The translations under genes and the position numbers were made by a program. This document shows, one piece after another, positions 15,507-18,037 of a stretch of 43,622 nucleotides of DNA (position 1 is its first letter; the number at the start of each line of letters is the position of its first letter). This DNA is from Chitinophagales bacterium. Its GTDB lineage: Bacteria > Bacteroidota > Bacteroidia > Chitinophagales > UBA2359. Below the pieces are notes generated by a model. The model had not been told where the DNA came from. It saw only the letters and a program-made list of their open reading frames with translations, and ran no database searches. The stretch is from contig JAHDEE010000014.1 of NCBI GenBank assembly GCA_020629005.1, forward strand, positions 12,166 to 55,787. Reading direction: 5' to 3'.

Positions 15507-16118
15507 ATGGAAAAGCTGGATTTCAACAAGAACTATACGCTCGAAAATTACAGGGTACTTCTTCGACCACTGGAGCAGGGTGATTTTGAGCATCTTTTGC
15601 CTTTTGCAATTAAAGAACCCAAACTCTGGACCTATTCACTCAAATCGGCCGGAAGTAGAGAGGATTTGGAACGCTACTTTACCGCTGCCTTTGAGATGAG
15701 GGCCCGAAAAACCGCCTACCCTTTTATTGTGTTTGACAAGCATACCGCTGAATATGCTGGATGTACCAGATTCTACGACTTTAGTCAGGAGCATCTGCAT
15801 GCCGATATTGGATATACCTGGTACGGAAAGAAGTTTTGGGGGACTAAGCTAAACAAGAACTGCAAATTCCTCCTGCTTCAATTCGCCTTCGAGCGTCTAG
15901 GTCTCAAAAGAGTAGGATTTCGGGCTGACCAAGACAATAAACGAAGCATTGCGGCCATGAAGAGCATTGGTTGCACAGTAGAGGGCGTTATGCGAAGTCA
16001 TTTCGAGGGGCAAAGAGGAAGACGAAACAGTATTGTATTAAGCATCCTGAACCATGAATGGGATTTCGAAGTAAGAGATAGCCTTGCTTCCAAGATTGCT
16101 GTAGATCAATTGGTGTAA
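15507..16118 (+). CDS. GNAT-family N-acetyltransferase (RimJ/RimL type)
   Basis: A 203-residue cytoplasmic acetyltransferase of the Acetyltransf_3 type. It shows the N-terminal LENYRVLLRPLEQGDFEHLLPF block, strand 4 (AGCTRFYDFSQEHLHADIGYTWYGKKFWG), the region that binds acetyl-CoA (GTKLNKNCKFLLLQFAFERLG), and the RVGFRADQDNKRSIAAMKSI segment that marks RimJ/RimL relatives, ending with EGVMRSHF. In this subfamily the acetyl group goes to an amino group of a ribosomal protein, amino acid or drug; the substrate is not predictable here. It is divergent from the MocR gene and may be its target. The start at 15507 (MEKLDFNKNYTLEN) fits relatives. Confidence 0.88.
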   Translation: MEKLDFNKNYTLENYRVLLRPLEQGDFEHLLPFAIKEPKLWTYSLKSAGSREDLERYFTAAFEMRARKTAYPFIVFDKHTAEYAGCTRFYDFSQEHLHADIGYTWYGKKFWGTKLNKNCKFLLLQFAFERLGLKRVGFRADQDNKRSIAAMKSIGCTVEGVMRSHFEGQRGRRNSIVLSILNHEWDFEVRDSLASKIAVDQLV

Positions 16119-16140
16119 TCCCGAATTTTTTTCATCACAA

Positions 16141-16172
16141 TTTGCATCTTTTACAGGAAGCTTATATCTTGG
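16141..16172 (+). promoter_or_regulatory. Promoter of the poly-Cys leader / peroxiredoxin transcript
   Basis: TTTG (16141-16144), a 20-base gap and TATCTTGG (16165-16172; one mismatch to TAnnTTTG) form a good Bacteroidota promoter. Transcription would start within a few bases of 16179, the leader ATG, so the leader may be translated from a message with almost no 5' untranslated region. Confidence 0.6.
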
Positions 16173-16178
16173 TGCTAT

Positions 16179-16253
16179 ATGAAAACGCAATTGAGCTACA
16201 TGTCCTGTTGTTGTTGTTTCTGCTTGCAGAACAAAACAGGAAGAGTGTGCTGA
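16179..16253 (+). CDS. Poly-cysteine leader peptide (24 aa)
   Basis: A short gene encoding MKTQLSYMSCCCC followed by FCLQNKTGRVC. Six of 24 residues are Cys, including four consecutive TGT codons (16206-16217). It sits between a good promoter and a strong intrinsic terminator upstream of the peroxiredoxin gene, the layout of a ribosome-mediated attenuator. Cysteine-rich leader ORFs that sense charged tRNA-Cys are known in mycobacteria and Bordetella. Here, GAAGAG at the end of the ORF (16240-16245) could pair with CTCTTC (16286-16291) in the 5' arm of the terminator. A ribosome stalled on the Cys codons would leave that segment free and block termination, whereas one reaching the stop would cover it. 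The peptide itself may have no function. The mechanism is inferred; the ORF, codons and hairpin are seen directly. Confidence 0.75.
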   Translation: MKTQLSYMSCCCCFCLQNKTGRVC

Positions 16254-16281
16254 TTGCTTAGGTGAAAATAAATTAATTATA

Positions 16282-16312
16282 AAGGCTCTTCTGATAGGAA
16301 GGGCCTTTTTTT
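16282..16312 (+). terminator. Attenuator terminator before peroxiredoxin gene
   Basis: AAGGCTCTTC (16282-16291) and GAAGGGCCTT (16298-16307) form a 10-bp stem with one G-U pair and a 6-base loop, followed directly by a run of seven T (16306-16312). It lies between the leader stop and the peroxiredoxin ATG at 16360, with no obvious promoter in between, so it likely works as a conditional terminator. Confidence 0.85.
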
Positions 16313-16359
16313 GTGCCTGCTCCTGTTGATGAGTCTATAACCATCAAAAAGACATTGTT

Positions 16360-16998
16360 ATGCCAATCAAACTAGGAGATGTAGCACCAAATTTCACAGC
16401 ACTTACTTCCCAGGGTCAAATAGATTTTCACGAATATCTAGGAGAAGGATGGGGAGTACTATTTGCTCATCCTGCCGATTTTACTCCGGTCTGTACCACC
16501 GAATTGGGAGCAGTTGCAAAGCTGGCTGACGAATTTGCTAAACGCAATACCAAAGTCATAGCAGTATCGGTAGATCCGATTGGAGATCACCACCAGTGGA
16601 TCAAGGACATCAATCGGACCCAAAACACAGAAGTAAACTACCCGCTTATTGCGGATCATGATAAAAAGGTAGCAGAGCTGTATGAGATGATCGCACCGGG
16701 AGTGAGCGTCAAGGCTACAGTTCGATCCGTTTTTGTCGTTGGCCCAGACAAAAAGGTAAAACTGACTTTGACTTACCCTCCTTCAACCGGCCGCAATTTC
16801 GATGAGATATTGAGAGTTATCGACAGTTTGCAGCTTACGGCAAACTATTCTGTCGCTACTCCTGCCGATTGGAAACAGGGCGATGATGTGATAATCTCTC
16901 CTTCAATCAGCAATGAGGAGGCAGAAAAGAAATTTGACAAGGGATTTACCAGCGTAACTGATTACATCAGAGTGACGCCACAACCAGATTTAGTCTAA
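16360..16998 (+). CDS. 1-Cys peroxiredoxin (Prx6 type)
   Basis: A 212-residue thiol peroxidase that reduces hydrogen peroxide and organic peroxides. The peroxidatic Cys45 is in PADFTPVCTTELG, and the catalytic Arg is probably in VKATVRSVFVVGP. The C-terminal domain (TPADWKQGDDVIISPSIS) is the one of the Prx6 subfamily, and no resolving Cys is present: Cys45 is the only Cys in the chain, so an outside thiol is needed for recycling. It is a single gene, preceded by the poly-Cys leader and terminator and followed by its own terminator. Linking a cysteine-sensing attenuator to a thiol peroxidase would tie peroxide defence to cysteine or sulfur supply; that link is inferred from position. Confidence 0.94.
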   Translation: MPIKLGDVAPNFTALTSQGQIDFHEYLGEGWGVLFAHPADFTPVCTTELGAVAKLADEFAKRNTKVIAVSVDPIGDHHQWIKDINRTQNTEVNYPLIADHDKKVAELYEMIAPGVSVKATVRSVFVVGPDKKVKLTLTYPPSTGRNFDEILRVIDSLQLTANYSVATPADWKQGDDVIISPSISNEEAEKKFDKGFTSVTDYIRVTPQPDLV

Positions 16999-17025
16999 GA
17001 TTAATGTTATAAATTATCGTGTGAG

Positions 17026-17067
17026 ATAAGGGTGCTCAGGCTTTACCGGGGTACCCTTATTTTTTTG
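17026..17067 (+). terminator. Intrinsic terminator after peroxiredoxin gene
   Basis: ATAAGGGT (17026-17033) pairs with ACCCTTAT (17053-17060); a few more wobble pairs extend the stem inward. A run of T follows to 17066. It lies 28 bases after the peroxiredoxin stop. Confidence 0.85.
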
Positions 17068-17128: not shown

Positions 17129-18037
17129 ATGGAGATACGAATTTTGCCGGTCATTCTACTTATGCTGCTTTTGAGGTCGACTTCTGCTCAGAATGTTGAT
17201 TCCCAAAATACACCTCCTCAAGGTAATGATCTGACCAGACTGCTGTTTGAACAGATGTATGTGCAGGGCATTGATTTATCCAAACCCTTAACTTTTGGAT
17301 ATTTCTTCTTTGATGCACAACAAGAAGATTTAAAGTCTCTTTCCGATATGCTGCAATCTGAAGGCTATACCCAGATCAACCTCTCGAAAGCAGAGGATGA
17401 ACAGTACAGCTTACATATGCAAAAAGCAGAAGCCCTGGATGGATCTTCAATGGTGGAACGTGGAAACTGGCTAAGGTCTCTTGCACAAAAACATAAGGTT
17501 GCCTTATATGATGGTTGGGATGTAGGCGCTCTGGATACGACTAAGCCCTTGACAACAGACGCAGCATTCCAGGATGCAATCAAAAAGTTAGCAGATGAGG
17601 ATTTGTTTGCCCGAGCCCAACGGCTTTATGACTTTGATATGTTCGAGCAAGCTTTGTTCGCGTTCAATTTGTGTATTGACAAAGGCTTGGTTCTCGATAC
17701 TTCATACTACAAGAGAGGCTTTTGCCTGCGACAATTAAGAGAACCGCAACAGAGTCTCAGCAGCTATTTACAGGCGCTCAAGACAAATCCAAATTATCTC
17801 AAAGCAGCCTTTAACGCAGCAGCCACTTACTACAATTTGGCTGACTACCAAAACTGTATTAAATACTATCAGAAAGTGTTGTCACTAGACGAAAACAATG
17901 ATCAGGCATGGTACGGAATAGCAGCAGCACAATACGCTCTGGAAGATCGAGAAGCATCAAAACAGAGCTGCAATAAAGCGCTGGAGATAAATCCCGACAA
18001 CCAGATGGCCCGTCAAATGCTGAAGTATTTCAAATAA
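17129..18037 (+). CDS. Exported RraB-like domain plus TPR repeats
   Basis: A 302-residue protein with a signal peptide (MEIRILPVILLMLLLRSTSAQ), so probably periplasmic. Residues 40-140 resemble the RraB fold: LTFGYFFFDAQQEDLKSLSDM, then MVERGNWLRSLAQKHKVALY and the hallmark DGWDVG. In Gammaproteobacteria RraB is a cytoplasmic inhibitor of RNase E; here export makes that role unlikely, and the domain may simply share the fold. Residues 160-300 hold about four tetratricopeptide repeats (SYYKRGFCLRQLREPQQSL, NYLKAAFNAAATYYNLADY, QAWYGIAAAQYALEDRE), usually protein-binding. It lies alone between the peroxiredoxin terminator and the converging permease gene. The RraB call rests on motif recognition and should be treated as likely, not certain. 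Confidence 0.7.
   Translation: MEIRILPVILLMLLLRSTSAQNVDSQNTPPQGNDLTRLLFEQMYVQGIDLSKPLTFGYFFFDAQQEDLKSLSDMLQSEGYTQINLSKAEDEQYSLHMQKAEALDGSSMVERGNWLRSLAQKHKVALYDGWDVGALDTTKPLTTDAAFQDAIKKLADEDLFARAQRLYDFDMFEQALFAFNLCIDKGLVLDTSYYKRGFCLRQLREPQQSLSSYLQALKTNPNYLKAAFNAAATYYNLADYQNCIKYYQKVLSLDENNDQAWYGIAAAQYALEDREASKQSCNKALEINPDNQMARQMLKYFK

Follow-up and report, generated by a model that had tools for sequence, protein, structure and literature searches.

The window analysed here, a 43,622-nucleotide stretch of DNA from a Chitinophagales bacterium, carries a short open reading frame (ORF) in which cysteine codons stand in a run; an intrinsic terminator and the gene for a 1-Cys peroxiredoxin (Prx) follow it. 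We consider it highly probable, from the sequence of this locus and its relatives, that the locus controls the Prx by ribosome-mediated transcription attenuation, with charged tRNA-Cys as the signal. The mechanism is classical and leaders of cysteine codons are already known; the novelty lies in a cysteine-attenuation regulon in Bacteroidota, with a peroxiredoxin as a recurrent member.

Results

The leader ORF (MKTQLSYMSCCCCFCLQNKTGRVC; 16179-16253, + strand, as are all features below) encodes 24 amino acids, six of them cysteine, and homologous poly-Cys leaders precede Prx and cysteine genes elsewhere. Its putative sensor is a run of four consecutive TGT codons (CCCC; 16206-16217), a Cys run being common to all of the leaders. 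The fifth and sixth Cys codons lie at 16221 and 16248, and the stop codon at 16251. A preliminary description of this DNA had reported a 24-residue ORF with CCCC and six cysteines in total, and its coordinates and sequence agree with ours. An in-frame internal ATG at 16200 would give the alternative product MSCCCCFCLQNKTGRVC; the true start may be either this codon or the nearly leaderless ATG at 16179, and transcription may begin very near 16179. By chance, 0.015 ORFs of at most 45 amino acids with four consecutive Cys codons are expected in a window of the same composition. In the whole 6.9-Mb genome from which the window comes, ATGNNN(TGY)4 occurs once, (TGY)4 followed downstream by a terminator-like end is present at two sites, one ahead of the Prx and the other ahead of a cysteine synthase operon, and a reversed control pattern has 0 matches.

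Ahead of the leader is a predicted promoter of the Bacteroidota type (16141-16172), made up of TTTG at -33 (16141), a 20-nt spacer and TATCTTGG at -7 (16165-16172). It matches 9 of 10 consensus bases and is the best match in 16100-16358. The preliminary description had placed a good promoter here; the place holds and the match is of the Bacteroidota type, not sigma-70, for which a scan of the locus gave nothing. Matches of 9/10 or 10/10 precede 16 of the 62 modules described below, against about 2 expected from shuffles, and across modules the -7 box of the predicted promoters often lies 5-11 nt from the first ATG, a spacing that suggests a very short 5′ UTR. The stretch from the terminator to the Prx ATG (16313-16359), where a separate promoter had been named as evidence against attenuation, contains no Bacteroidota consensus match of 7/10 or better.

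The intrinsic terminator (16281-16312; -16.5 kcal/mol) consists of a hairpin at 16281-16308, with a 4-nt loop in a 12-pair stem, and a T run, reading GGGCC and then seven T in all; it sits where the preliminary description had put a terminator with seven T ahead of the Prx. The terminator 5′ arm (16281-16292) is also the 3′ strand of the antiterminator and contains CTCTTC (16286-16291). This motif is complementary, exactly as had been claimed, to GAAGAG (16240-16245), the core of the antiterminator 5′ strand (16238-16246), which pairs with the terminator 5′ arm in a duplex test. In the minimum free energy fold, when the leader is free, the Cys-codon region pairs with AACAAAACAGG in a protector stem (16204-16239). 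Folding the window's leader with a ribosome footprint on the Cys run leaves GAAGAG free, and a ribosome at the stop codon covers it. The antiterminator pairing, at -11.7 kcal/mol, is weaker than the locus's own terminator and is equalled by 6 of 61 foreign leaders. Judged by itself, the pairing in the window is real and moderately special, not exceptional, and the inference is carried by the family.

Members of this family were sought with a pattern of four Cys codons and a terminator-like end 60-90 nt further on, which matched 41 of 199 and 74 of 398 genomes of the order, the reversed control pattern being far rarer. In a phylum-wide scan 25 of 395 genomes matched, many of the matches being coding repeats; convincing loci from outside the order were few, with L168 and L177 appearing genuine. 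Alanine-rich gene ends (GCTGCTGCT) were false matches and were discarded. The resulting set comprises at least 62 modules, spread over 47 loci whose downstream gene could be classified; they come from this bacterial order, with a few from elsewhere. The terminator in every module is part of the search pattern; antiterminator complementarity was not used to select loci. Nitrite/sulfite reductase genes lie downstream of 26 modules, cysteine synthase genes of 22, Prx genes of nine, ATP-grasp genes of three and O-acetylhomoserine sulfhydrylase genes of two. CysM-type cysteine synthase operons are among the targets, as is CysH, behind Prx. Leaving aside Prx and the ATP-grasp protein, every target either makes or uses cysteine or the sulfur precursors of it; CysM, sulfite reductase (SiR), MetY, CysH and tRNA-Cys are related to the sensed amino acid, and Prx is the odd one.

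The Cys run varies from 3 to 10 codons, with TGT and TGC both in use (255:116), and the remaining peptide is not conserved, so that what has been kept is the decoding of Cys codons rather than a peptide or DNA motif. Lack of conservation of the leader codons in relatives had been named as a ground for rejecting attenuation, and we find the Cys codons kept wherever the leader exists. Two complete modules stand in series within one promoter region, about 120-260 nt apart, at 15 of the 47 loci (L099, L133, L134, L150, L151, L153, L154, L213 and L215-L221), for example before Prx in G009 and before sulfite reductase in G017. A pair arranged like this would be expected to have a combined read-through equal to the product of the two, and hence to give a sharper response. 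The ATP-grasp protein, which is RimK/glutathione-synthetase-like, lies behind poly-Cys leaders at L116 (G025), L146 (G198) and L177 (G337), one of which belongs to a more distant lineage; it may be the ligase for some metabolite that contains cysteine.

The second module in the window's own genome precedes an operon of a CysM-like synthase, a JAMM protease, a ThiS/CysO-like carrier and a MoeZ-like E1-rhodanese protein. This operon resembles the sulfur-carrier cysteine pathway (CysM-CysO-Mec-MoeZ) of M. tuberculosis, whose CysM works with O-phosphoserine and CysO (PMC11361707). A search of the same genome for sulfite reductase (PF01077) found none, so some regulon members are absent from it. 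A third candidate there (G000:C155, CCCYC-like) was rejected, as no leader-terminator structure passed the script.

Across the 62 modules, the mean antiterminator pairing was -13.1 kcal/mol for each locus's own strands, -8.3 kcal/mol when strands were swapped between loci and -6.8 kcal/mol when they were shuffled. The difference between own and swapped pairing corresponds to z=-16.5, and 0 of 5000 permutations came near it; with similar sequences removed (51 modules) the value was z=-14.7. The excess of own over swapped pairing shows a locus-specific antiterminator that co-evolves with its terminator. The protector stem behaves likewise, the Cys-codon region preferring its own downstream strand (own versus swapped z=-6.0, family-wide). 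With a ribosome footprint on the Cys run, at least five antiterminator pairs form in 59 of 62 modules, compared with 10 of 62 when the footprint is at the stop codon. The family presents the features of an attenuator: a leader Cys run, an intrinsic terminator, a competing antiterminator, the appropriate ribosome geometry and related targets.

The window Prx (16360-16998) is of the Prx6 type, with AhpC-TSA and 1-cysPrx_C domains and a single cysteine, the peroxidatic residue 45, in PVCTTE. A long hairpin followed by T7 (17022-17067) forms a terminator-like end behind it, so the gene is probably monocistronic. Directly after it, 17129-18037 encodes a protein in which TPR repeats are joined to an RraB domain (regulator of RNase activity B).

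Prx orthologues were taken from public genomes and relatives and their upstream regions were read. Besides the window, at least 13 Prx loci in two Prx subfamilies carry the poly-Cys leader: L002 (a Saprospiraceae MAG), G050, G062, G192, G009, G040 and G053, and further G116, G648, G662, G588, G580, G608 and G598, the leader in the last four being assigned from the ORF alone. Of the 106 upstream regions sampled, about 13 have a leader and about 90 have none; L002 and G062 were added by other routes. The preliminary description had proposed a comparison of orthologous Prx and cysteine-gene upstream regions for the same leader and terminator. These are indeed shared, together with a co-varying antiterminator, across many genomes; for Prx in particular the architecture recurs, but in a minority of the sampled orthologues.

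On a tree of 57 Prx proteins, in which the two subfamilies are about 45% identical, the distribution of the leader calls for at least five gains or losses. CysM or CysH follows Prx in 7 of 11 leader-bearing loci, compared with 3 of 38 leaderless ones that have such a neighbour (Fisher p=3.5e-4), and in several loci JAMM/CysO lies alongside the CysM. Prx is alone under the leader in the window, L002 and L234, which form one supported clade; the predicted cysteine control there is thus independent of any surviving larger operon. In two other genomes (G046 and G116) tRNA-Cys lies directly before Prx. Through the CysM/CysH operons and these tRNA-Cys neighbours, Prx has more than one connection with cysteine supply.

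In G046 (L157, 482-4255) the order on one strand is leader, CysM, JAMM, ThiS/CysO-like, MoeZ-like, tRNA-Cys and Prx. In G116 (L238, about 1190-1500) the order is poly-Cys leader, terminator, tRNA-Cys (gca) at 1375-1447 and Prx. The G116 antiterminator (-17.7 kcal/mol) competes with a terminator of -19.3 kcal/mol, and this attenuator seems to control the very tRNA whose charging it senses. At L101 and L103 (G023 and G044), where the leader is absent, the end of a rhodanese-like gene lies just upstream of a Prx6-type gene, a further connection with sulfur.

Discussion

What is observed directly is the set of sequence parts, the fact that they recur ahead of cysteine genes and Prx orthologues, and the co-evolution of antiterminator and terminator. 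In the mechanism that we infer from them, which includes the promoter, leader translation, ribosome stalling and the direction of the response, RNA polymerase would start from the promoter at about 16141-16172 as a ribosome translates the Cys-rich peptide. When cysteine is ample, the ribosome would reach the stop codon at 16251 and cover GAAGAG (16240-16245), the terminator (16281-16312) would form and the transcript would stop before Prx. When Cys-tRNA is scarce, the ribosome would stall at 16206-16223, opening the protector stem and freeing GAAGAG to pair with CTCTTC (16286-16291); the terminator 5′ arm would be consumed and Prx transcribed. These cells would thus very probably raise Prx upon cysteine shortage.

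As to why a peroxiredoxin should be controlled in this way, we infer that it is part of the cysteine-starvation response, in which it would guard thiol-poor cells or protect the cysteine-making pathway. A more specific possibility, which we put forward tentatively, is that Prx is a working part of cysteine assimilation whose task during cysteine scarcity is to protect or recycle a sulfur intermediate prone to oxidation, such as a persulfide or the CysO thiocarboxylate, with tandem attenuators sharpening the response. Such a role would explain why Prx is found repeatedly under a poly-Cys attenuator and beside CysM-CysO-JAMM-MoeZ, CysH or tRNA-Cys.

Alternatively, the leader may be a working attenuator and the Prx a passenger left over from a broken-up ancestral Prx-CysM or Prx-CysH operon, its control being functionless in this genome. 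The enrichment of CysM/CysH operons headed by leader-bearing Prx (7/11 versus 3/38; p=3.5e-4) speaks for this, and given the 7 of 11 operons the leader may originally have been acquired for the CysM/CysH genes rather than for Prx. However, the solitary leader-Prx arrangement has been retained in the supported clade of the window, L002 and L234, where Prx is bounded by a terminator-like hairpin downstream (window and L002) or by a neighbour on the opposite strand (L234), and the antiterminator pairing is good in the window and L234. The several separate gains or losses of the leader on the Prx tree also count against a passenger, which we regard as possible yet rather doubtful.

A second alternative is that the peptide itself is the sensor, its Cys-rich nascent chain binding copper or another metal or being oxidised, as in CruR. 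An oxidation signal would suit a peroxiredoxin, and a Bordetella upstream ORF responds to copper (PMC9426467), but the remaining targets are nearly all cysteine/sulfur assimilation genes, which makes a copper- or redox-sensing peptide unlikely. Beyond the Cys run the peptide is unconserved, the run itself ranges from 3 to 10 codons and a full RNA attenuator with antiterminator is present, so we judge a peptide sensor quite improbable. It is still harder to credit that the ORF is a chance occurrence, with the terminator serving the transcript of the upstream acetyltransferase gene, which ends at 16118 and whose own terminator this could be, and Prx having its own promoter: the Prx genes of most relatives do lack a leader, but 0.015 such ORFs are expected per window, the same design recurs before Prx and cysteine genes, and the gap between terminator and Prx contains no promoter match.

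Transcription attenuation controlled by charged tRNA-Cys, the reading that we favour, has the parts of trp/his-type attenuation, namely an ORF of regulatory codons, a protector stem, an antiterminator and an intrinsic terminator, with ribosome position selecting the fold; it differs in that cysteine would be sensed and in the serial modules at 15 of 47 loci. Cys-codon leaders before cysteine/sulfur genes were first predicted in Actinobacteria, where no conserved terminator was reported (PMC1262725), and mycobacteria have polycysteine leaderless short ORFs (Canestrari 2020, as cited in PMC13236596) whose control is described as translational attenuation (PMC13236596). This is the mycobacterial precedent for Cys-rich leaders before sulfur genes that the preliminary description had invoked. 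The Bacteroidota modules share with the mycobacterial ORFs the Cys-codon runs before cysteine/sulfur genes, but have strong intrinsic terminators, a co-evolving antiterminator and Prx among their targets. Bordetella, also invoked, is not a cysteine-sensing precedent: the CruR upstream ORF likewise controls downstream genes after transcription start, but it responds to copper, not cysteine (PMC9426467). The uORFC-8-2 motif before proteobacterial cysS is a uORF with Cys codons in tandem, accompanied by hairpins and a U run, and ribosome-mediated attenuation has been proposed for it (PMC8632094); in contrast to the present family, it has two Cys codons, belongs to another phylum and targets cysS rather than a biosynthesis or Prx regulon.

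In the open-access literature that we searched we found no cysteine attenuator in Bacteroidota and none controlling a peroxiredoxin; the papers on F. psychrophilum and B. thetaiotaomicron that touch on leader-peptide attenuation do so only in a general way. Rfam returned nothing above the gathering threshold for the window region or nine related loci; a match to Phe_leader was below threshold (22.8 bits versus 55) and was discarded. The link between cysteine and Prx that had been proposed as new for Bacteroidota is borne out insofar as the leader design stands before Prx orthologues, the attenuation response itself being predicted.

The regulon can be read straight from sequence in a widespread environmental group. 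In it, a peroxide-removing enzyme is predicted to be coupled to cysteine supply via tRNA charging, and Prx is physically linked with the sulfur-carrier route to cysteine as well as with tRNA-Cys, making both the purpose of Prx and the role of serial attenuators directly testable.
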